Virus record (IMG/VR): IMGVR_UViG_3300044618_000958
Coordinates: 1-25,913 of that record
Source of the DNA: a virus
Strand: one strand, 5' to 3'
DNA length: 25,913 nt
Part shown: in pieces, positions 1-23,417 of the stretch
Numbering within the stretch: position 1 is the first letter of the stretch
Layout: every line of letters begins with the position of its first letter
Notes under the pieces: model-generated
The model's input: the letters and a program-made list of their open reading frames with translations, nothing else
The model's database searches: none
What the model was told of the DNA's origin: nothing
Made by a program: the position numbers and the translations under genes

Positions 1-90
1 TCTTACTATAGCATCTGCAGCTCTTTTACCAGCAGCTTTTATAACTTTTCCATACTGTGCTTTAGGTAAAGCTTTACTTGTTTTTTTCAT
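1..90 (-). CDS. small basic array protein, C-terminus beyond window edge
   Basis: Partial gene: the first 30 codons are visible, from ATG at 90 to the left edge with no stop. The N-terminus has the KAQ-x-GK-V/I-IK motif (KAQYGKVIK) that opens other members of the small basic array to its right, so this is most likely a further array member. Its ATG lies 1 nt after the TAG that ends the preceding member in that member's expected frame (92-94). It is also in frame with the upstream ATG at 372 because that upstream gene carries a one-base frame change, so it could be translated as the tail of a fusion. Function unknown; the residues seen are rich in Lys, Ala and Gly. Confidence 0.6.
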   Translation of the reverse strand, partial: MKKTSKALPKAQYGKVIKAAGKRAADAIVR

Positions 91-91
91 A

Positions 92-372
92 CTATTTCTT
101 TTTAATTGAGCCACCCATCTTTTTTTAAAAGACTTTGGATATTGTTTTTTTAAATCTTCATACTTTTTCTTTTGAGCAATACCTTCTGGACTTTTTTCTT
201 TTTCTGCAAATTGTTTTTTAGCTTGATATGTTGAGATAGCAGCTGCAGTTCCTAAACCACCAGTTATAGCACCAGCTGCACCAAAGACTTGTTTTGTAGG
301 TCTTTTCTTAAGAAGTGTATTACCTACAGATTTAACAATCTTGCCCATTTGAGCTTTTGCTAGTTTTTTCAT
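92..372 (-). CDS. small basic array protein with a frame change in its poly(A) tract
   Basis: From ATG at 372 the protein begins with the array motif KKLAKAQMGKIVK. A Gly/Ala-rich, possibly membrane-active stretch follows (about residues 30-48), then a Lys/Glu-rich helix. In the starting frame there is no stop before the window edge. A single -1 shift at the run of seven A followed by G (minus strand, about 119-126) restores the array's usual ending, KKKMGGSIKKK then TAG at 92-94. This gives a protein of about 93 aa, like its neighbours. Without the shift the frame runs on through the next gene's ATG at 90 and would make a fusion. Possible causes are a homopolymer mutation, a sequencing error, or real slippage on A-AAA-AAG. 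Function unknown; probably a virion or host-modifying basic protein. Confidence 0.55.
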
Positions 373-373
373 A

Positions 374-700
374 TTACTTCTTTTTAGTAGGACCACCCAT
401 TTTTTTAATAACACCTCTGCCTTTTAAGATATCAGCTTTAGTTACTTTTCCATCTTTATTAAGATCAGGGAAAGAACCACCTTTAGCCATAGTCTTAGTT
501 TTAGCTGCATTACTTATAGGACTATTTTTAACATCTTTGTTAAAGCTTTTACTCATATATTCATTAATAGCTTTTTTACTTTCAGCAGCTCTAGCACTAT
601 CTGATTTAGAAGGTTTTGATTTTAAAAAACTCTCTATAGAACCACCAGACTGCATTTTTTTCATTTTAGCTTTTTCACAAGCTGCACATTTTTTTGCCAT
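374..700 (-). CDS. small basic protein with an EF-hand-type loop and a CxxC motif
   Basis: 108 aa, Lys-rich. It opens with MAKKCAACEKAK (a CxxC), has a first tag-like KMQSGGS near residue 16 and ends with the array tag KKMGGPTKKK. About 30 residues before the end is DLNKDGKVTKAD, which fits the 12-residue EF-hand/dockerin-type calcium loop (D-x-N-x-D-G-x-V-T-x-x-D). It is followed by ILKGRGV. From memory, similar FPDLN-DGKVT-AD-L-GRG stretches occur in proteins of environmental phages; this was not checked. It starts 2 nt after the stop of the upstream member (703) and ends 1 nt before the next ATG (372). Calcium binding is an inference from the loop alone, since only one loop is present. Confidence 0.75.
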   Translation of the reverse strand: MAKKCAACEKAKMKKMQSGGSIESFLKSKPSKSDSARAAESKKAINEYMSKSFNKDVKNSPISNAAKTKTMAKGGSFPDLNKDGKVTKADILKGRGVIKKMGGPTKKK

Positions 701-702
701 GA

Positions 703-936
703 TTATTTCTTTTTTTTAGTTTTAGTGGCACCACCCATTTTTTTCTTAGATAAAGATTCAAGATGTGCTTTTAATCTAGCTCTTTCAGATAAAGCTACTG
801 CATTACCTACTTCTTTTTTTGAAATATCAAGCATAGGTTTTACAGCCTTAACTACAGGCTTTGCTTCTTTAGCTACTGTTTTAACAGCTGCTTTGATTAT
901 TTTACCAAATTGAGCTTTTGCTAATTTTTTTGCCAT
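703..936 (-). CDS. small basic array protein
   Basis: 77 aa, very Lys/Ala-rich and predicted mostly helical. It starts with the shared N-terminal motif KKLAKAQFGKIIKAAVK and ends with the shared tail KKKMGGATKTKKKK. The middle (VVKAVKPMLDISKKEVG and onward) is amphipathic and has no recognised domain. Start and stop lie 2 nt from both neighbours, so it is translated from a polycistronic message. The A-rich DNA coding for the upstream gene's lysine tail sits where a Bacteroidota-type A-rich initiation region would be. Function unknown. Candidate roles are a DNA-condensing or internal virion protein, or an injected host-takeover protein; a membrane-active peptide is an alternative. Confidence 0.75.
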   Translation of the reverse strand: MAKKLAKAQFGKIIKAAVKTVAKEAKPVVKAVKPMLDISKKEVGNAVALSERARLKAHLESLSKKKMGGATKTKKKK

Positions 937-938
937 TA

Positions 939-1190
939 CTATTTCTTTTTAGAATATCTATCAAATGCACCGGTTGATCCACCACTCTTCATCTTACGTG
1001 GTATAAGATTAGAAGGTTTTGGTGATGATGGACCAGACATTGGATTTTTTGCTGGAGGTAAATCAGCTATACTTTTTTCTCTAGTAGGACCTTTTCCAAT
1101 TACTGGACGAATCTTCTTAGTTGCAGTACCTGTTGTGCTAGTGATTGTAGCTTTAGATCCACCTGTTTGTTTTTTAGCTAACTTTTTCAT
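939..1190 (-). CDS. small basic, Pro/Ser/Thr-rich array protein
   Basis: 83 aa. It begins with a shortened form of the array N-terminus (MKKLAKKQTGG). The core is low in hydrophobic residues and rich in Thr, Pro, Lys and Gly, so probably disordered. It ends KMKSGGSTGAFDRYSKKK, a variant of the array C-terminal tag. The RK-(M)-KSGGS-x-G part closely resembles the C-terminal tail of the putative scaffold at 5361-6617 (RKKSGGSPG). It sits 1-2 nt from both neighbours. No recognised domain. Confidence 0.7.
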   Translation of the reverse strand: MKKLAKKQTGGSKATITSTTGTATKKIRPVIGKGPTREKSIADLPPAKNPMSGPSSPKPSNLIPRKMKSGGSTGAFDRYSKKK

Positions 1191-1191
1191 A

Positions 1192-1392
1192 TTAACAAGA
1201 TTTTTTAGATTTAACCATACCGCCTTTTTTCATCATAGTACCATACTTAGCAGCAGGAACTGCACCTTTTGGTGGAGTGTTAACTTTACCAGAAGGTTTA
1301 GCTTTAATACTTTTTTGTACTTTAGCAGTACCATTAGTACCACCTGTTTTACCTGTAGGTTTAGTAACCACTTTAGCTTTGATATCTTTCAT
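1192..1392 (-). CDS. small Lys/Gly/Thr-rich array protein
   Basis: 66 aa, low complexity, rich in Lys, Gly, Thr and Pro. The usual KAQ-GKI start is missing (it opens MKDIKAKVVTKPTGK). The C-terminal tag survives as MMKKGGMVKSKKSC, unusual in ending with a cysteine. Stop and start lie 1-2 nt from the flanking members, so it belongs to the same transcript. Probably disordered; function unknown. Confidence 0.65.
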   Translation of the reverse strand: MKDIKAKVVTKPTGKTGGTNGTAKVQKSIKAKPSGKVNTPPKGAVPAAKYGTMMKKGGMVKSKKSC

Positions 1393-1394
1393 AA

Positions 1395-1712
1395 TTATTT
1401 CTTTTTAGATTTAGTTGCTCCACCTGTTTTTTTATCGTCCATCCTTCGCATCTTAGCTCTTGTAGAATCTGCTACATTGTTTCCATATTTTTCTTTAATT
1501 GGTACTAAAGCTTTTTCTCTAGCTTCAACTTTCCGGATGGTTGGTGTTAGTGCAGCATAACCAGCACCTGCTCCAACACCTAATGCAGCTACGTAAGCTT
1601 TAGTTCTAGGCTGGTCTACATTCCTCATATAATTTTTATATGCGCCTTTAGCACCCTTGGCTACTGCTTTTACTATCTTACCCGCTTGGGCTTTTTCTAG
1701 TTTTTTTGCCAT
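1395..1712 (-). CDS. small basic array protein with a Gly/Ala hydrophobic stretch
   Basis: 105 aa. It begins MAKKLEKAQAGKIVKAVAK (shared N-terminal motif) and ends KKTGGATKSKKK (shared tail). The middle has a Gly/Ala-rich hydrophobic segment (about residues 41-55, YVAALGVGAGAGYAAL) that could be a short membrane helix, followed by a charged region. A comparable Gly/Ala segment sits in the member starting at 372, so those two may be the closest relatives. The neighbouring stop and start are 2-3 nt away. Function unknown. Confidence 0.75.
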   Translation of the reverse strand: MAKKLEKAQAGKIVKAVAKGAKGAYKNYMRNVDQPRTKAYVAALGVGAGAGYAALTPTIRKVEAREKALVPIKEKYGNNVADSTRAKMRRMDDKKTGGATKSKKK

Positions 1713-1715
1713 GTC

Positions 1716-1886
1716 TTATTTTTTTAATTTACCAGTTGGTACATCACAAGCAGCTTTATTAAAGCCACCAGTATACTTGGTTGGGTTAGTTAATACTGTT
1801 ACAGAAGCATTTGTGCCTCCTACGCGCCCGCCTGGAGTTGTTACAACTACAGGACATACATTTGGGTTTTTCATTTGTCCAGTCAT
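1716..1886 (-). CDS. 56-aa hypothetical protein at the head of the small-gene array
   Basis: ATG at 1886, TAA at 1716-1718. The protein opens MTGQMKNPNVCPVVVTTPGG and ends ACDVPTGKLKK. It is less basic than the array members, has two cysteines, and carries YTGG and a short lysine end that faintly echo the array tag. The 3-nt gap to the next ATG (1712) and 23-nt gap from the upstream stop fit one operon. The coding call rests on the tight spacing, the open frame and the sensible composition; no family recognised. Confidence 0.6.
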   Translation of the reverse strand: MTGQMKNPNVCPVVVTTPGGRVGGTNASVTVLTNPTKYTGGFNKAACDVPTGKLKK

Positions 1887-1909: not shown

Positions 1910-2926
1910 TTATACACTCCAATACTTTTCTACTTTCTTAGTTAAATCAAGTAAGATAGAATCATTTAATGGATTCTTCAAATACTCTATACAATCAGAT
2001 ACATTTCTACCTAACATTGAAGCACTGTCTGTGTGGTAGATAAACCCGTCAGCTTTAGGAGAGATAAACTTATAAAAAGTTGCATCTTTTACAATTGACT
2101 TAATTTTAAGTGTCTCCATATCTAGCGCGCATGCATCCAAGAATGTCTGAGCAGCTCTTCTTAAGTTAGTCTCAATACCTTCTCCTGTAATGAATTTATC
2201 CATGTTGTCATATAGAACATCATTAGGAGTAGTCTTCTTGTATTGAACACTATTTCCATCAACAACTTTACATACATAAAACAACTTATTCTGGTTTTTA
2301 TCAAACATTTTAATAAGCTCAGATAATGCTTTATTACGGATTTTGCTGATCTCAGTTTTAGTAGATACAGTATCTATAAATCTGTCTAAGTAAAACTTAG
2401 GTGGAACAGCTTTACTGCGGGCCTCATCATAACTTTTACATACAATAGAGAATCCACCAGCATCAATTGCATATAACTTAATTAAGTCATAAGGATCTTT
2501 TGCAGGATCTAAATGCACCGGCTCATTACCACAACGGATTGAGATTCTTTCCCAGAACTCATGATTGTTTGGTTGAAGTAATTGAACTTTATTCCAAAAA
2601 TCAGGATCCTCAGGATCTAGCACATTAGTAGCAAGTTCTCTTTCAAGTTGTGTTACTATTGTACGGATCTCTCTGATCTTAGCTTCGCGTACTTCTTTGT
2701 CTGCAATAAGTTTAACCTCTGGGGCAAACTCATTAAGACCTGTAATGTATCTCTTGATACCATTACGCTCAATACAAGCAAGTTGCTCTTCATGAAATAC
2801 TCCATCAAATAATGCTAAGCCATATTTCTCTAGGCCTAGATTAGCTTTATTGGGGTCAAAGAACGGTTTAACAGATATACTGCCAGATTTAGCTGTCTCA
2901 GCTAGGGATACAATTGTGATACTCAT
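1910..2926 (-). CDS. phage protein of unknown function downstream of capsid genes
   Basis: 338 aa, soluble, mixed alpha/beta composition with no membrane segment or signal peptide. The stretch at about residues 70-105 (KEVREAKIREIRTIVTQLERE) is a probable helix or coiled coil. I recognise no catalytic motif. Its place, two genes after the major capsid protein in the same direction, suggests a head-completion, connector or other structural role. This is inference from position only. The start at 2926 follows a T-rich minus-complement (A-rich on mRNA) leader. Confidence 0.75.
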   Translation of the reverse strand: MSITIVSLAETAKSGSISVKPFFDPNKANLGLEKYGLALFDGVFHEEQLACIERNGIKRYITGLNEFAPEVKLIADKEVREAKIREIRTIVTQLERELATNVLDPEDPDFWNKVQLLQPNNHEFWERISIRCGNEPVHLDPAKDPYDLIKLYAIDAGGFSIVCKSYDEARSKAVPPKFYLDRFIDTVSTKTEISKIRNKALSELIKMFDKNQNKLFYVCKVVDGNSVQYKKTTPNDVLYDNMDKFITGEGIETNLRRAAQTFLDACALDMETLKIKSIVKDATFYKFISPKADGFIYHTDSASMLGRNVSDCIEYLKNPLNDSILLDLTKKVEKYWSV

Positions 2927-3680: not shown

Positions 3681-5318
3681 TTAGAATGATCCTCCAGTGA
3701 TAGGATTTCTCATTACAATCTTAAGAACCTTGGTAGGATCTTTTACCCAGATAGCTGGCATTGTTTGAGTCATCATAACACGGTATCCATTGAATTGTCC
3801 ACTAGATTGGAACCCTTGAGTTCTTCCCATGTAATCCATAGTACCATTTTGGTACCACCACTTTAATTGATTATCCCAAGATAATTTCAACATGAAGATG
3901 TTGTCATTTCCTGTATCAGTGATATCAAAGATCACAAAGCTATAAGAGCTTAATGGATTTCCATCAATGATTGGGTTCTCAATATCATTAGTGTGTAAGT
4001 TATCAAATGCTGGGTTAAGAACAAACTTAACATTAGCTAAGAAAGGAATTACATAACTAGTGAAAGAGAATCCAAAGTTTAGATCCATACCTTGACCAGT
4101 GATAGCTCCAATACCGCCTCCACCATTTTTACCATCACCCATGTTGATCATTAAACCTGTGTTTACTGCCTCACGCTTGATAGCCTCATTTACTAATCTC
4201 ATACCACCCATACCTGTTTGAACAATTAATTGTCTCTTAGGATCTGGACCTTGGAATTCAACACGTCCTGCATAGAAGTTATATAACTCAGCACGGAATA
4301 ATTCTAAGCTAAAGCTAGCTTTGTTATACACACGCTTGTAAGAGTTGTCTAATTGCTTCCATAAACCTACTGATAAACGCATGTCATCTGGACCATCTTG
4401 CTTAATACGTCCACCATGACCCCACATTAAGTAAGTCTCGATGTCAGTAGCAATCTTAGTTAAGTGAGCTGCTTCCATAGTAGTTAAGAAAGTACGGGTT
4501 AAAGTACCATTACCAATAGCACGCTTTAAGTAATCTTTACCCATTTTGCTTGCTACATCTTCAATCTTGCTAATAGCAGGATCTAATTGTGTATCAAAGT
4601 TTCTCCAGATCTCAGTTACAGGAACTGTACCATCTGCAGCCATTCCACCTTTTAACATCAAGTCAGCACGAGATGAGATAGAATAATGTACATGAGCTTC
4701 TGCACCTCCTACGAAGTTATAGAACTCACGGAATCCAGAGCGAGTCTGAATATCAGAGAATCTCTCACCATACTCTCCGCGGGCAGAACCTTTACGGAAT
4801 AATTTAGTTTGAGATACTAAATACTTGTTCTCAAGGAACTTGTAGTTGTCATTGTTTACTAATTGTACAGTGTAGATAAAACCATCACCCATAGGTAGGA
4901 TATCATCTGCAGTAATGTACATCTCACAACCATTGTATTTGTCATAAGTGATAATATCACCATGACCAAACTCACGCTTGTTAACTTTAATTTTGAAAGG
5001 AGTACCATCAACACCTTTAGTAAGGTTAGCTGGTTCAATGTCTTCAATGATGTATGGTAAGTCTTGACTAACAGGAGTTTGCCATTTGTACTCACCACGA
5101 GCATTTTCAACCATGATAATATTCTTACCACCAAATGAAGATAATTGGTAAAGAGGCATTTCAACTTTTTGAGCCATAGCCCAAATGTCTACCGGACCTA
5201 AGTCCATTGGTTCTGCATCTTTTAACATGTTTACTAAGTGGTATGAATCTACGTGAGAACTAGCATTGTAGTTTGTGTCACGCAAGAATATACCATTGTT
5301 TAATACTGGAGTTGCCAT
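3681..5318 (-). CDS. major capsid protein
   Basis: 545 aa, no signal peptide. It forms the head shell. Assignment rests on three things: the place directly after a scaffold-like gene and portal; the length and composition typical of large HK97-fold capsid proteins (beta-rich, few Cys, many aromatic and Asn residues, Gly-rich loop GDGKNGGGGIGAITG near residue 400); and my impression of similarity to capsid proteins of crAss-like and marine Bacteroidota phages. It starts MATPVLNNGIFLRDTNYN and ends RNPITGGSF. The ATG at 5318 follows an A/T-rich leader of about 40 nt. Two stem-loops directly follow the stop, fitting a highly expressed gene. No long N-terminal delta domain is evident, consistent with a separate scaffold. 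Confidence 0.85.
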   Translation of the reverse strand: MATPVLNNGIFLRDTNYNASSHVDSYHLVNMLKDAEPMDLGPVDIWAMAQKVEMPLYQLSSFGGKNIIMVENARGEYKWQTPVSQDLPYIIEDIEPANLTKGVDGTPFKIKVNKREFGHGDIITYDKYNGCEMYITADDILPMGDGFIYTVQLVNNDNYKFLENKYLVSQTKLFRKGSARGEYGERFSDIQTRSGFREFYNFVGGAEAHVHYSISSRADLMLKGGMAADGTVPVTEIWRNFDTQLDPAISKIEDVASKMGKDYLKRAIGNGTLTRTFLTTMEAAHLTKIATDIETYLMWGHGGRIKQDGPDDMRLSVGLWKQLDNSYKRVYNKASFSLELFRAELYNFYAGRVEFQGPDPKRQLIVQTGMGGMRLVNEAIKREAVNTGLMINMGDGKNGGGGIGAITGQGMDLNFGFSFTSYVIPFLANVKFVLNPAFDNLHTNDIENPIIDGNPLSSYSFVIFDITDTGNDNIFMLKLSWDNQLKWWYQNGTMDYMGRTQGFQSSGQFNGYRVMMTQTMPAIWVKDPTKVLKIVMRNPITGGSF

Positions 5319-5360: not shown

Positions 5361-6617
5361 TTATTTATTTCTTGCAAAAAAGCTACCAGAAGGTCTTGCT
5401 AAACCTGGTGAACCACCTGATTTTTTTCTGCTAGCATTGTCATCTTCTTCTTGAAAGTTAGATGTAATTTTATTGTTTTGTTCTGTCTTCAGTGTACGCA
5501 CTGTTTTCTCTACTTGATCTTTACCACCTACAGCTTTAAGCTTAGCTTTGTATCCATCTGGATCAGCTAATAACCAAAGTGCTTCACTAATCAGAGCAGG
5601 ATTAGGTTCTACATATTGATACTTTTCTAATAAGTGACCAAGTAAGTTTGTATTTCTACCAGATACTGAAGGATAATTTGCTTGAGTTAAACCGCCAAAT
5701 AACATATTCTGTACTTTCTTGTCTATCTTAATTCCATTAATCTCACCAGGTTCAAGAGTTTTATATATTGAATCTGTGTATATTGCAGCTTGTTGTTGTT
5801 GTTGCTTACGCTTAACTTCTTGTTGTTGTAATTGTCTTGCAACAATTTGCTCTTGCATAGCATCTAATTTTGGTTTGAATTTGTTAGCCTTAGCCTCTAA
5901 TTCATCTCTATCTTTCCAAGCTTCTATTTCCTCTTCAATATCTTCAGCTGTACCAAATTGTGTAGCATGTAAATAGCTTCTAACAATTTGTTCTTGACTG
6001 GATTCATCAGAAGTATCTAACTGGCGAATTTCTTCTACCGCTGCTAAGGATCTAAATAAGCTCTTTAGGTCATTACCACCATTAGCAACATAGTGTGCTG
6101 CTACTTGTAATTCTTCAGGAAGTTGTTCATAGAATTCTTCAGAAGCTTCTTTACCAAACTTTTGTTTTTTGGCATTTTCATTAGATTCAAATAACTCTTC
6201 CCAATCTTTAAGAGTATATTTACTTACATCTTCTTCTCCTTCAAAAGGAGTTAAGATACCTTTTTCAATAAGTCTTGTACCTAATTCTACTAGGCCTGTA
6301 GGTCTTCCTGTTTTTTTAGAAGACTCTTCATTATTAGAAGTATCTTCTGGATTAGTAATAAGATTATCTAAAGTCTTATTAGCCTCTTCTACACTGATGT
6401 TAGGTGCAGCTTTATCAGCATTTTCACCAGCTTCTTCTGAAGAAGAATCATCAGCTTTATCAAGGAACGTAAGATCTACTTTAGAAGCTCTAGAAAACAT
6501 CCCTGGTTTCTCTTCTTTCTTTTCAGGCACCATGATGTTCTCTGCACCCGGTGTACCTAGTAAGTCATCAAGATTTATGTCTTGTTGATTTACTGTAGTT
6601 GTTTCATTATTACTCAT
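5361..6617 (-). CDS. putative head scaffolding protein
   Basis: 418 aa, strongly acidic N-terminal half (Glu/Asp/Ser-rich, probably disordered to about residue 105). A helical region with a long Gln-rich coiled coil follows (about 235-275, including QLQQQEVKRKQQQQQ), then a basic, Gly/Ser-rich C-terminal tail (RKKSGGSPGLARPSGSFF). An acidic coiled-coil protein between portal and capsid gene is the classic arrangement for scaffold, with the basic tail usually contacting capsid protein. The KSGGS-x-G motif in that tail recurs in the array protein at 939-1190. No protease motif seen. The promoter-like site near 6646 may give it extra transcription. Confidence 0.7.
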   Translation of the reverse strand: MSNNETTTVNQQDINLDDLLGTPGAENIMVPEKKEEKPGMFSRASKVDLTFLDKADDSSSEEAGENADKAAPNISVEEANKTLDNLITNPEDTSNNEESSKKTGRPTGLVELGTRLIEKGILTPFEGEEDVSKYTLKDWEELFESNENAKKQKFGKEASEEFYEQLPEELQVAAHYVANGGNDLKSLFRSLAAVEEIRQLDTSDESSQEQIVRSYLHATQFGTAEDIEEEIEAWKDRDELEAKANKFKPKLDAMQEQIVARQLQQQEVKRKQQQQQAAIYTDSIYKTLEPGEINGIKIDKKVQNMLFGGLTQANYPSVSGRNTNLLGHLLEKYQYVEPNPALISEALWLLADPDGYKAKLKAVGGKDQVEKTVRTLKTEQNNKITSNFQEEDDNASRKKSGGSPGLARPSGSFFARNK

Positions 6618-6725: not shown

Positions 6726-9494
6726 CTATTTCTTCTTCTTTGTATCAGGCTTTTTATTATCAAATTTATTCTTATTTTCCCTGGCTATCTCCAAATCTGT
6801 TTGCTTTAACTTTATTTGAGTCTGCATTTTTTCTCTTTCAATTTGTGCTTTCTCTCTATCATTGGTCATTCTATTAGTTTCTTTGCTATTCTGAAGACCC
6901 ATTGTTTCCTGAAATTGTTCTGACTTTTGAATCTGACCTAATGCATCTAAATAATCACTTTGTTGATTAGCATTAATATCCTCCATAGCACCGTATCCTG
7001 CAGATTTAATCTCTGCAATAAGAATATCTTTTCTTCTATCTTTTTCTTTCTCTTGCATATCATGATCAAGCTGCATTTGCTTCTCTTGAAGTCTAGTTTG
7101 CATTTCTTGTTCTTGCATTTGCTGAGCATGCTGTTGCTCTTCTTGACGTTGAGCTGTAGTTTTTCTATCAATAGCTTTAAGTGAATTTGTAAGCTCACCC
7201 ATAGATTCTGTTTGCATGATAGTTCCTAGATCATAAATAGTAGCACCGGCAGTATTATTACTAACTGCTAAGTTTTTCATTTGTTCTAGAATAGCTCTTT
7301 GATTAGCCTTAGTTGTAGCAAAAATATTAAGATCTCTTAATAAAAGATCTGTACCATTCATTTCAAAATTAACTTTCTCATCACTAGATGTTATGTATTG
7401 TAATCTAATAGAAGGTTTAGTTGATTGATAATACTGGGCTAGGTCTGTGCGCATCTGGTGCACGCGAGGCATCAAGTAATCAGAGTGTTGAATAAAGTAT
7501 GGTTCTGTTTGAGCAAAAGATCCTGCAACAGCTTGTTCTATGCCTTTGGCTGTATCTGTTTGTCCAATCTGTTGACCTAATCTTTGTGGTGTAATTCCTA
7601 TTACTTCAAAACATTGTTGCTTGAAATAATTAGCCATTTGGATCCTAGACATCATACGGTTAGTCTGCTCTAAGTTCATTACCTGGAAAGGATTCTGAGA
7701 GATTGAGTTTTCTGTATTAGCAATAGATGTATCTAAAGGTAAGATCTGAAAATTCTTCATTGCTACATAAGCCTTGGCAAAGTTGTTCTTACCCCAGTCT
7801 TCTCCTAATGAGCGCTTAGGTAATGCATTCTGATCTAACATGATTACTGTGCCTAGCTCGTCAATAAGGATATCAGCAATCTGATTGTTTACAATATTGT
7901 ACCCGATCTGGAAAGGCTTCATTAAGTCAACCATAGAAGTTGATCTTGTATTTCTGTCATTGAATACAGCTCCCTCTACAGGTAGTTTACATCCATAAAG
8001 AGTATTCTCACCTTTGAACTGAAACTTAAGAGGACCCATTCTATTTTGATCAATACCTAAATACATAGGATTTATTCCTCCTGGATTATTCATACCCCAA
8101 AAGCTTGGATGATTAGGGCCAATCTTTACACCACCCCATGTTTGATTAATCCAAATCCAATCTATATGCTCACCAAAAATTAAATTATCTTTACTTTTAT
8201 TTTTTATTAAAGTTGTATCATAGATAGGTTTGTCTGTGATGATATAATCTTCACCAATGATATCTGTAGCTACTTCACCATTATCACTAATCTTAGTTAA
8301 GTGACCTACTTTTCTTTGTGATTTCCAATAAGCAGTTGTTACACGGAGTAAGAAAGCTGCACCCATAGGCGCGTAGTCTTCTCCTTCAGCCATGATCCAA
8401 TTAATAATATCACCACCATTATACACAAAGTTGTCATACATAGATGTAAACTGTCTGTAGGCTAAGGACGGCATATTAGTATTCCATTCATGAGACTTGG
8501 TAGCATCATAATATGATCCATCATTCTGGTAACCCTGTAGAGGATAACCAGCAGATCTAACCGGATAAATAGCTTCAATAGATTCCAATTGTTCTTGAGT
8601 CATGGCATAACCATACTTATCAATAACATCAGCAACAGTTAACATCTCAATTCTACCAACCCAATTACCTTGAGAGATATATCTTGCTTCAGGAGATTTA
8701 TGATAAAAAGTAGTCACAGGATTCCATAACTCAATATCATAATCATCTTCCATCATCTTAAAATGCCAGAACTCTCTATCTGTAATAAGAGAATCACGGA
8801 AACCACGCTCTTCTAATTCATCCATCTTAAAGCGCTCTTCATCAATTTTAGTTTGATGCATAGCCCATTGTTCACACATACTTCTATAATCTTTATCAAA
8901 GAAGTTTTGTATTTCAGGAAGTGTTTTAAGGTTTTCTGGAGACAGTTGTTGTTGCATTTGTTGCTGAACTTCAGGATCATTCTCATCAAGACCTTGCTCA
9001 AGCATTTTAGCTAAAAGCTTTTGTTCAGCTTGTTGTAGAAGAACATTCTCAACTTGAGATCTTTTTTGTTCTAGTTGTTCATTGTAAGAATACTCATCTT
9101 TTGCTTGAAAAGTGATTTTACTATTTCTTTTAGAAAACTCTGAGGTAAGAACATTTATAATATTAGGAATGATAGGATAGAACTTTAACTCAAGTACACT
9201 AGGATCTTCTTTAGTAAGAGTATCTACAAGATCTCTCATTTCATTATCTTCCTCTATGACATAATCATTTCTATCAATTACTCCTTTAGCTAACTTATAA
9301 TTTTTCATAAGCCTTCTTGCATTTCTGCGAAGTTGCTTAAGGCCGTTCCACTCAAGCCAGTCTAGATTCCAAGCAGCCCACTCCGGATCTTTGTCTTTTC
9401 TTGGCAAAAACTGTAAAGGCTGAGTAATAGAACCCATCCTATTATACTCGGCTTTTTTGCCGGATTTCATTTGTAATGCGTTGAGTACTTGCAT
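6726..9494 (-). CDS. portal protein
   Basis: 922 aa, long for a portal but in line with large Bacteroidota phages. It forms the dodecameric ring for DNA packaging and tail attachment. Evidence: directly downstream of TerL (6-nt gap), upstream of scaffold and capsid. The N-terminal region has DPEWAAWNLDWLEWNG and YPIIPNIINVLTSEF, of the type seen in crAss-like portals. A Gln/Glu-rich helical insertion lies at about residues 145-200. The C-terminal ~170 residues are an extended Gln/Glu/Lys coiled coil (QRQEEQQHAQQMQEQEMQ), a likely barrel/plug-type extension. It ends in a lysine run (TKKKK). Family placement is from order and resemblance, not search. Confidence 0.85.
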   Translation of the reverse strand: MQVLNALQMKSGKKAEYNRMGSITQPLQFLPRKDKDPEWAAWNLDWLEWNGLKQLRRNARRLMKNYKLAKGVIDRNDYVIEEDNEMRDLVDTLTKEDPSVLELKFYPIIPNIINVLTSEFSKRNSKITFQAKDEYSYNEQLEQKRSQVENVLLQQAEQKLLAKMLEQGLDENDPEVQQQMQQQLSPENLKTLPEIQNFFDKDYRSMCEQWAMHQTKIDEERFKMDELEERGFRDSLITDREFWHFKMMEDDYDIELWNPVTTFYHKSPEARYISQGNWVGRIEMLTVADVIDKYGYAMTQEQLESIEAIYPVRSAGYPLQGYQNDGSYYDATKSHEWNTNMPSLAYRQFTSMYDNFVYNGGDIINWIMAEGEDYAPMGAAFLLRVTTAYWKSQRKVGHLTKISDNGEVATDIIGEDYIITDKPIYDTTLIKNKSKDNLIFGEHIDWIWINQTWGGVKIGPNHPSFWGMNNPGGINPMYLGIDQNRMGPLKFQFKGENTLYGCKLPVEGAVFNDRNTRSTSMVDLMKPFQIGYNIVNNQIADILIDELGTVIMLDQNALPKRSLGEDWGKNNFAKAYVAMKNFQILPLDTSIANTENSISQNPFQVMNLEQTNRMMSRIQMANYFKQQCFEVIGITPQRLGQQIGQTDTAKGIEQAVAGSFAQTEPYFIQHSDYLMPRVHQMRTDLAQYYQSTKPSIRLQYITSSDEKVNFEMNGTDLLLRDLNIFATTKANQRAILEQMKNLAVSNNTAGATIYDLGTIMQTESMGELTNSLKAIDRKTTAQRQEEQQHAQQMQEQEMQTRLQEKQMQLDHDMQEKEKDRRKDILIAEIKSAGYGAMEDINANQQSDYLDALGQIQKSEQFQETMGLQNSKETNRMTNDREKAQIEREKMQTQIKLKQTDLEIARENKNKFDNKKPDTKKKK

Positions 9495-9500
9495 GGTATA

Positions 9501-11705
9501 TTATCTTATATTTTTAAAAGGATTTCTGACTGGTTTAGCATCATTCATAACTTTACTACCCCCTCCAATATGCCTGAAGGGATTGTTAGTAAATTTATAT
9601 AAATTTTCTGATTTGGACAAGTCTTTTTTATCAGTAGTATCTAATCTCTTTTTGATACCTCTATTTGCTTCTTGAACTTTTGCAAAAGCTATGAGAGCTC
9701 CTAGTGCAATTAATCTATCTACATTGAGTCCTTCCCTGTATTGTTGCATCTCAACCATAACCATCTTATCAGGAATTCTCTCAATACCATAAACTACTTT
9801 AACTACCTTACCTTCATCTGTGGTTACTTCTTCTAAAACTTCTTTACAAAAGTCTATTAGGTAAGGTAAGATGTGGGCCCGGAATATTGTTCCAGTATTT
9901 CTCCATCCATACTCCTGGTGATAAGTTTGAACATTATCAATGTCTTTTCTGAAAGTAATCTGACTCTTGGGAACTAAATACTTTTGTTTTTTTTGCTTGA
10001 TCATGTGAGTTATAAAGCCGGGGACGTTGCTCTCAACAAGGGTCCAGGCATTATACCATTCAATCATGTTCTCTAATCTTTTATGAGTCTCATTGATATC
10101 ATCAAATCTTCCACACCAGCTGGCTACAATTTTATCTTGTTCTATGTATGTAGATACATCTACACCATCTTGTCTAGTTACTTCAATAGGAATCTTATAA
10201 ATAAAGATAGAGCATAAGGATTCTGATGTTGTAGTTTTACCTTGTGACACGGGATCTATAGATGCATAGTATGTACCCCACTCAGCCTTTAAATCTGGTT
10301 TTTCATACATTACAATTACACCACTTTTATCTTCAGCATTCTTCTCTACTGGAAACTTTGATACAGGAAGCTTTTTACTTTTTTCTATAACCCATACACC
10401 TTGCGCATTCCTAGATAAATCTATAAATTCTGTATGGTATTCTTTATCTTCAATTCTTCTCTTCTGAGCAGCAACTAAATGACTAGGAAATAAGGATACA
10501 CTTCTTGTTGCAAAGGCCTCTTCAATATTGCGCGGATGCTGAGATACTTCTAATTGATAATCCTCAGGTGCTAAATCTTTTTTAATTTTAGCAAAATATT
10601 CATCAAGCATTACAAGAGCCTTTTCTACTTCAGAGTTACCAAACTTATCTACACAAGGTGGCATTGACCACTGCTCTGGAATAAATAAACCAGTTCTTCC
10701 TACCGTCCCTCTCTCATCTAGAAGATTAGAGTTAACATAAAATATCTCATTAGCCTCAGGAGTCTGAATCATTTTTCTTAAAGGCTCACACTGTTCTAAG
10801 TCACCCACGGATCCAGCTGCTATAAAAGTACCAGTTGTAATCATACCTGATTTCAAAGCAGGCTTCATGTATCCATAAGTAAACATCATGTCCGGAGCAA
10901 TCCCGGCTTCTTCATGAAAGAAATAAGTACAGGGTCCACCTACACCGGCTGTTGGATCTTGCTCAAAGGATGTTCCTTTAATAACACCTTTTAAACCTCT
11001 TAAGGTTTTTCTTGTAGTTCCTGGAATAGTTGTTTCAATTTGTTGTTGCCAGTCAAGAACCTTACCTGGATTCATAGGCCGGTACCAAGCTGTATTCTCA
11101 TCTAAGAAGTTTCTATACTCTGCTAAAAATCTCCAAGTATCTTGTACATAAGCTTTAAGACTTGCTCCCATTTTTAGAATAGGAGTTTGTTCAAACCAGA
11201 TCTGGTTAATCAGTTTAGCTGCATGAAAATACGAAGAGGCTATCTGCCGTTTCTTAAGAATAGCAGCATGCTTATAAAACAATTCAGCTAAGATCTCATA
11301 AAGAGCTAAGTGATATTGAGCATCGCGTATATCAGGGAAAGCAAACTTTCTTATTTCTTTGTTGTTGATAGGTAGGAAGTTTATCCACATATAGTACTCA
11401 CGCGTGAGGTACCAGGTCTTCTTCTTATTCTTAAAGATCACACCTTTTCTACATCGCGCATTCATCTCATCCCAATAAGTAATATAATCTTTACTTCTTA
11501 CAGGAGCTGGTGTATAAAATCCTTGCGCGTTATACTTAGCAGCTTCTTCATTAAATATGAAAGATGTTTCATCAAAATCATATTTACCTGGTTCTTTAAA
11601 TACAGATAAAACTAGATCTCTAAATTCTTCTCTAGTATCAAAACTGGTAGTAGTCCAAACACCATTATCCCAAGTGGGTATATCTGTATAGAAAAATTTA
11701 TCCAT
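9501..11705 (-). CDS. terL: terminase large subunit (TerL)
   Basis: 734 aa packaging motor with ATPase and nuclease domains. ATPase: a deviant Walker A at about 151-158 (KKRQIASS, of the K-x-RQ-x-G-[FI]-[ST] type but with Ala instead of Gly) and Walker B at 261-266 (YFFHEE). RNase H-like nuclease: candidate metal ligands D484 (ASIDPVSQG), E558 (LVESN) and D663 (NVDRLIALG). The start overlaps the upstream stop as TAATG, suggesting coupled translation with the putative small subunit. The portal follows 6 nt downstream. Very confident for TerL. Confidence 0.93.
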   Translation of the reverse strand: MDKFFYTDIPTWDNGVWTTTSFDTREEFRDLVLSVFKEPGKYDFDETSFIFNEEAAKYNAQGFYTPAPVRSKDYITYWDEMNARCRKGVIFKNKKKTWYLTREYYMWINFLPINNKEIRKFAFPDIRDAQYHLALYEILAELFYKHAAILKKRQIASSYFHAAKLINQIWFEQTPILKMGASLKAYVQDTWRFLAEYRNFLDENTAWYRPMNPGKVLDWQQQIETTIPGTTRKTLRGLKGVIKGTSFEQDPTAGVGGPCTYFFHEEAGIAPDMMFTYGYMKPALKSGMITTGTFIAAGSVGDLEQCEPLRKMIQTPEANEIFYVNSNLLDERGTVGRTGLFIPEQWSMPPCVDKFGNSEVEKALVMLDEYFAKIKKDLAPEDYQLEVSQHPRNIEEAFATRSVSLFPSHLVAAQKRRIEDKEYHTEFIDLSRNAQGVWVIEKSKKLPVSKFPVEKNAEDKSGVIVMYEKPDLKAEWGTYYASIDPVSQGKTTTSESLCSIFIYKIPIEVTRQDGVDVSTYIEQDKIVASWCGRFDDINETHKRLENMIEWYNAWTLVESNVPGFITHMIKQKKQKYLVPKSQITFRKDIDNVQTYHQEYGWRNTGTIFRAHILPYLIDFCKEVLEEVTTDEGKVVKVVYGIERIPDKMVMVEMQQYREGLNVDRLIALGALIAFAKVQEANRGIKKRLDTTDKKDLSKSENLYKFTNNPFRHIGGGSKVMNDAKPVRNPFKNIR

Positions 11706-23150: not shown

Positions 23151-23417
23151 TTACAATACACAAATAATATCTGGTTCACGCATAATTAAATATTCTTTTT
23201 CTTCCCATTCAAAAATGATTCCTGAGTGCTGACCATATTGAACAAGATCTCCTACTTTAACATCAGCTGAAACTTTCTCTCCTATGGCCATTACTTTTCC
23301 ACGAGTGGAAGGAGGCAGTTCTTTTTTCATGGTAATTAATCCGGAGGCTCTTACCTCTTCTGTCTCTTGATCTGTTGGTGAAATGATCACCCTGTTAGCT
23401 AATGGTTTTACTTTCAT
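23151..23417 (-). CDS. groES: GroES-like co-chaperonin
   Basis: 88 aa, close to the usual 95-100 of Cpn10. Family features: VKPLANRVIISP at the start (compare KPL-x-DRV), a short mobile-loop region with SGLI (about 26-29), GKVMAIGE (about 41-48), VKVGDLVQYGQHSG (compare GD-x-V-x-Y), and EYLIMREPDIICVL at the end (compare YLI-x-x-E-DI-x-A-I). It would act with host GroEL to fold phage proteins such as capsid protein, like T4 gp31. No GroEL gene is in view. Confidence 0.85.
   Translation of the reverse strand: MKVKPLANRVIISPTDQETEEVRASGLITMKKELPPSTRGKVMAIGEKVSADVKVGDLVQYGQHSGIIFEWEEKEYLIMREPDIICVL

Follow-up and report, generated by a model that had tools for sequence, protein, structure and literature searches.

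The internal proteins of phage T4, IPI, IPII and IPIII, are small and basic, occur several to a phage, share a short common N-terminal sequence on divergent cores and are poorly conserved between relatives (PMC9026906). In phage crAss001 the cargo proteins C1 (gp45) and C2 (gp46) have been detected in virions by mass spectrometry, and cryo-EM has located parts of C1 both at the portal and within the tail barrel (PMC10172136). Here we describe an array of small basic genes from the head-tail region of an environmental crAss-like phage and its relatives, which is probably a hypervariable cassette of proteins that would be packed in the virion beside the large cargo and released with the DNA.

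An array of small basic genes in a crAss-like phage fragment

The DNA analysed (“the window”) covers 25.9 kb of an environmental crAss-like phage (IMG/VR record IMGVR_UViG_3300044618_000958). It encodes a crassvirus major capsid protein (PF23898, 6e-30), and the gene order is that of Crassvirales (TerL, portal, (scaffold), capsid, ring-type, muzzle, cargo and polymerase-type genes), with a ring match to crAss001 itself that is weak. The capsid, portal and terminase genes are all on the minus strand, and the array lies downstream of the capsid gene (Table 1). Among cultured phages the best-covered match of the window's capsid protein is that of Leptolyngbya phage Lbo-JY46 (27% identity), whose reported host is a cyanobacterium. 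The window also carries a GroES-like co-chaperonin gene.

As originally predicted for 1-1712, consecutive small basic genes spaced 1-3 nt apart are present; they fill positions 1-1886 on the minus strand, and the array is longer than was then stated: a 99.9%-identical contig (L004) completes it to 13 genes over 3.5 kb. The prediction had also given most of the genes a common N-terminal motif and all complete ones a common C-terminal tag. The KAQxGK form of the former is present in four window genes (1395-1712, 703-936, 91-372 and 1-90), but two others deviate from it and the gene at 1192-1392 is without it. The complete genes from 374 to 1712 carry the C-terminal GG tag with lysines, although the one at 1192-1392 ends in KKSC; the gene at 91-372 has lost the tag in the window through a frameshift near its 3' end, a homopolymer length difference near 121-126 relative to L004, where the frame is open, and as this homopolymer is close to the fragment end an assembly error is possible.

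Table 1. Positions of the array, its flanking and head genes, and related features in other genomes and contigs
Feature	Source	Position	Strand	Remarks
Tagged basic gene, N-terminal part, cut by window end	window	1..90	-	MKKTSKALPKAQYGKVIKAAG...; 96 aa in contig L004
Tagged basic gene	window	91..372	-	MKKLAKAQMGKIVK...; glycine-rich hydrophobic segment; in L004 93 aa, C-tag KKMGGSIKKK
108-aa basic protein	window	374..700	-	KKMQSGG near N-terminus; EF-hand-like loop DLNKDGKVTKAD; C-tag KKMGGPTKKK
77-aa basic protein	window	703..936	-	N-tag KKLAKAQFGKIIK; C-tag KKMGGATKTKKKK
83-aa basic protein	window	939..1190	-	N-tag variant KKLAKKQTGG; C-tag KSGGSTGAFDRYSKKK
66-aa basic protein	window	1192..1392	-	Without N-tag; C-end KKGGMVKSKKSC
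105-aa basic protein	window	1395..1712	-	N-tag KKLEKAQAGKIVK; glycine-rich hydrophobic segment; C-tag KKTGGATKSKKK
56-aa first slot gene	window	1716..1886	-	YTGG-repeat family
338-aa conserved gene, slot flank	window	1910..2926	-	Homologue in Lbo-JY46; profile match to crAss001 gp33
Crassvirus major capsid protein	window	3681..5318	-	PF23898
418-aa gene, scaffold position	window	5361..6617	-	No family match; C-end ...RKKSGGSPGLARPSGSFFARNK
Portal protein	window	6726..9494	-	phrog_6547
Terminase large subunit	window	9501..11705	-	phrog_6681
GroES-like co-chaperonin	window	23151-23417	-	phrog_3188
Second array	L215	10081-10863	reverse
Second array	L219	3249-4594	reverse
Second array	L223	5017-5399
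Large protein with internal repeats	G001:C1	44689-52794
Large protein with internal repeats	G007:C1	44564-51680	-
Large protein with internal repeats	G012:C1	70619-80275	-
C817-type protein in two open frames	G001:C1	52799-56254		706 and 437 aa
50-aa basic gene	G007:C1	73964-74116	-	Ends KKGGAVKK

The array occupies a variable slot between head and tail-ring-type genes

Eighty environmental loci were gathered via relatives of the capsid protein, and the “slot” was defined by its flanks, the 338-aa gene on one side and a ring/adaptor-type 234-aa gene on the other, both of which were present in 44 loci; slot genes were called with a purpose-written tiling script. Across these 44 loci the slot ranges in length from 0 (the cultured Lbo-JY46) to 4.2 kb, and in the 43 environmental contigs it spans 0.4-4.2 kb and holds 1-15 predicted genes, most of them with 20-35% K+R. 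Net charge, computed for six slots at one copy per protein, is +109 to +234. The 234-aa flank has homologues in phi4:1 (gp62, identified by MS as a virion protein) and in csAssE-Sib, where the gene carries a ring-protein annotation, and its “ring-type” label rests on these two homologies, since it falls below the Pfam crAss ring families and matches crAss001 gp34/gp35 weakly. Because no more than about 5 nt separate the genes at the flank positions in Lbo-JY46, phi4:1, csAssE-Sib and crAss001, the array is additional DNA that one environmental clade carries in its head-tail module. This location between head and tail-ring-type genes supports virion packaging of the slot proteins.

The slots of 66 loci yielded 302 distinct proteins. 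Some fall into recurrent families, among them a YTGG-repeat leader (48 loci), DUF6321 (28), a “WIQ” module (23) and an EF-hand-like module (22); others are cores seen once with tags on either side, and tags also occur on proteins that carry recurrent modules. The cores had originally been described as unrelated-looking and their double tag as belonging to no described family; several array genes do belong to known families, one representative matching DUF6321 (PF19846) above the cut-off (1e-25) and one of 30 matching DUF5872 (PF19197, 5.6e-15; none in the window itself), both families covering untagged array members only. In a PF19846 search of 13 records DUF6321 was found once each in nine and was absent from three short-slot records and Lbo-JY46. 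The 30 representatives had no NCBIfam match, and a tblastn query with the tagged 105-aa protein gave none in 50,697 phage records.

Tagged cores turn over fast and untagged modules persist: a homologue of the core (<95% identity) was found in another array for 13 of 30 N-tagged proteins, compared with 160 of 197 proteins that have neither tag. L004 and its near relative L006 have the same DUF6321 sequence and 98.5% identity in the 338-aa protein, but L006 lacks five tagged genes that are present in L004. The faster turnover of tagged than of untagged cores likewise favours packaging.

The terminal tags and the translation of closely spaced genes

An N-terminal tag of the KxQxG type is carried by 30 of the 302 slot proteins (4.2 expected after shuffling these proteins), a K..GG motif stands in the last 20 residues of 107 (25 in shuffles) and a K-rich tail is found in 162 (22 in shuffles), while the corresponding numbers for 581 non-slot ORFs of at least 120 aa from the same loci are 3, 12 and 62; both tags occur together in 21 slot proteins and in none of the 581. 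An exact DNA pattern for M-x-KK-L-x-KAQ-x-G at a start codon was found in only 18 stretches of 2.9 million viral contigs, all but about one (L218) from this crAss-like clade and mostly from the slot, with those of L215, L219 and L223 beside a lysis cassette instead. Most array genes of the relatives are without the N-tag. Tag codons vary synonymously (GCT/GCA/GCC, CAA/CAG and GGT/GGA/GGC), which indicates that the tag is conserved at the protein level. The same variation speaks against recombination between stretches of identical tag DNA as the only source of the shared tags.

Translation might instead account for the shared ends, or at least for the C-terminal lysines, if in tightly packed genes an A-rich initiation region for the next gene, read as AAA/AAG codons, gives KKK as a by-product; this alternative had been raised with the original prediction. 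K-rich tails are indeed commoner where the next gene is near, at 68% in slot genes whose successor begins within 5 nt and 27-31% otherwise, and translation initiation therefore explains part of the KKK; closely followed genes outside the slot are also A-rich in their last 15 nt (A 0.49, compared with 0.38 for the rest). However, it leaves unexplained the N-tag and the GG part of the C-tag (17 of 43 slot genes end in GG-x-x-K, compared with 2 of 562 others), AAG use is higher rather than lower in tail lysines than in core lysines, and about half of the GG-tagged proteins keep the K tail when the next gene is more distant. As an account of the shared ends it is a serious possibility, but one that we are inclined to doubt.

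The N-terminal motif recurs in large proteins at the cargo position

In five long genomes the pattern KAQ.G occurs 7 times in the 3,642 residues encoded by the slot (0.1 predicted by shuffles), 15 times in the 15,526 residues of the large genes between the muzzle and polymerase-type genes (two to four such genes per genome; shuffles 0.5) and once in the 152,174 residues encoded elsewhere (shuffles 1.6); since the first KAQ.G hits were already known when the large genes were grouped, P-values overstate this enrichment. Loci retrieved through the N-terminal domain of a single large protein offer a more independent test: in them KAQ.G occurs 20 times in that protein's family, 33 times in genes upstream and not at all in 90,377 residues downstream. 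The position of these large genes is that of crAss001 C1 and C2, and phi4:1 gp40/gp41, at the same position, are annotated as virion proteins from MS/MS. Several large cargo-position proteins start with the tag; a 484-aa gene there in Lbo-JY46 begins MKIRIIGLPKAQIG. Enrichment of KAQ.G at the C1/C2 position supports packaging, and near-confinement of the tag, outside the slot, to large proteins at a position known for packaged proteins suggests that the swappable small proteins are packed in particles as well.

GGWLD and LPKAQxG repeats also lie inside the chain of large cargo-position proteins, beyond the N-terminus (Table 1). In one genome the C817-type protein appears as two open frames, a split that may be real or a sequencing fault; in other genomes it is one longer protein.

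Short glycine-containing motifs that stand at protein ends and are repeated inside large proteins could also mark where a head-maturation protease recognises and trims cargo proteins, as T4 gp21 does, and T4 internal proteins shed propeptides (PMC9026906). We consider this quite unlikely: 52 proteins of one genome (G011), a scan that excluded its largest and many small proteins, contained no classical prohead protease family, the main text of the crAss001 structure paper mentions neither protease nor cleavage (PMC10172136), and the motif has no fixed hydrophobic residue. An adenain-like (M/I/L)xGG cleavage rule was tried and dropped, no hydrophobic residue being found at a fixed position.

A second connection to crAss001 runs through an 821-aa protein of genome G008. 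The WIQ module of the array matches its residues 239-306 (whole-protein E 2e-4; the sole non-array match among 605 proteins), and its residues 254-320 match gp45 375-440 (4e-15). A WIQ profile searched directly against gp45 gave no match, so that the array-gp45 link is transitive, via the 821-aa protein; with that qualification the chain supports packaging. The module sits in untagged array members, and tagged array proteins have only short motifs in common with gp45. The latter ends in GGTKKAKGGKVRTKKKK / GGTKKAKGGKVRTKKKKGLTYG, of the GG/lysine type, and like some array proteins has a hydrophobic glycine-rich N-terminal part; it differs from the array in being a single 842-aa protein, encoded elsewhere in the genome, with no KAQ motif; its cryo-EM models are 7qog and 8ckb. 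The C817 family (N-terminal domain HMM) has no detectable homology to gp45 or phi4:1 gp40, tblastn of its 817-aa protein against the 50,697 phage records gave no match, and a Pfam scan of six cargo-position proteins found only a tail lysozyme domain, in phi4:1 gp41.

Related modules in other aquatic phages

DUF6321 genes are present in 538 phage records, mostly of cyanophages and pelagiphages. The T7-like phages P-SCSP2 and HTVC168P have small basic genes with array modules between their scaffold and capsid genes, in Methylophilales phage MEP402 the module genes adjoin the terminase gene, and in P-HM1 they lie between the terminase genes; the fact that unrelated marine phages keep same-family basic modules next to their scaffold, capsid or terminase genes is further support for packaging. 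Four basic modules of one array (L220) have counterparts in P-SCSP2 genes 19, 20, 22 and 23, and an array protein shares 78% identity with HTVC168P gene 30. These genes have the same kind of head-gene position as the array, but they number 3-5, belong to an unrelated phage type, are annotated as hypothetical and show no KAQ tag. In G007 a 50-aa basic gene lies between the scaffold-position and capsid genes, the location of the small basic genes in T7-like marine phages. The main texts of cyanophage virion proteomics papers are silent on DUF6321 packaging, and a literature search that mostly excluded subscription papers returned none naming DUF6321 and none on lysine-rich proteins of crAss-like phages.

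Exchange of modules with phages of unrelated hosts, at up to about 78% identity, and high turnover would also be expected if the cassette consisted of host-takeover or counter-defence genes that are expressed in the infected cell and not packaged, their late-operon position being incidental. A second array of tagged and basic genes, outside the capsid-ring slot in L215, L219 and L223, adjoins a lysis cassette (endolysin-like and holin-like genes) downstream of a polymerase-type gene and would fit the same explanation. Against it, the motif is common to large cargo-position proteins and missing from the genes downstream of them, and the array stands among head genes, as in T7-like marine phages; we regard unpackaged takeover genes as unlikely.

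Comparison with T4 internal proteins and proposed function

Resemblance to T4 internal head proteins had been proposed for the array from the start. It gains from the concentration of the tag in proteins at the crAss001 cargo position and from the link of the WIQ module to gp45 through a relative, but the double tag is not universal. Like the T4 proteins, those of the array are small, basic and several per phage, with a common N-terminal sequence on divergent, replaceable cores. They differ in the sequence of that tag, in their additional C-terminal GG/lysine tag and in lying together in a single slot between the head and tail genes of a crAss-like phage; they have no Pfam, PHROG or NCBIfam match of the IPI/II/III kind. 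Our best reading is that the array would work like T4 internal proteins, by analogy and not by homology.

We judge it likelier than the contrary that the small basic slot proteins are packed in the virion. The phage would load them alongside the large cargo proteins; the tag L-x-KAQ-x-G[KG], or the related K-x-GG, might be recognised at assembly by the capsid wall, the portal, the tail barrel or a large cargo protein; and the slot proteins would enter the host together with the DNA. Their cores could diverge freely and be swapped, some of them as modules common to unrelated aquatic phages, and may act in DNA charge neutralisation, in membrane insertion (the glycine-rich members) or in counter-defence. 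At the net charges given above many copies could neutralise some of the DNA charge, which is a matter of arithmetic rather than evidence. Hydrophobic, glycine-rich segments occur in a few tagged members, and the N-terminal part of gp45 has a predicted transmembrane helix (PMC10172136), so that membrane insertion after ejection is possible. The fold models back neither a DNA-binding nor a membrane role: the AlphaFold model of the tagged 105-aa protein (mean pLDDT 51) is not usable, and that of DUF6321 is helical (pLDDT 78, pTM 0.42) and has no PDB fold match, which leaves DNA binding unsupported by structure.

If packaging is right, the Crassvirales gain a hypervariable set of small cargo proteins, whereas the described crAss001 cargo consists of large ones, and a short peptide that may direct proteins into crAss-like virions. 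We suggest more tentatively that KAQxG could be a modular virion-loading signal, common to the large ejected proteins and to the small basic ones of the swappable cassette; were this true, a core joined to the tag would be packed and delivered, and these phages would have a capsid-targeting system of their own, distinct from the one in T4-like phages. The array would also hint at a pool of small basic modules common to crAss-like, T7-like and T4-like aquatic phages, some of which are already cultured.
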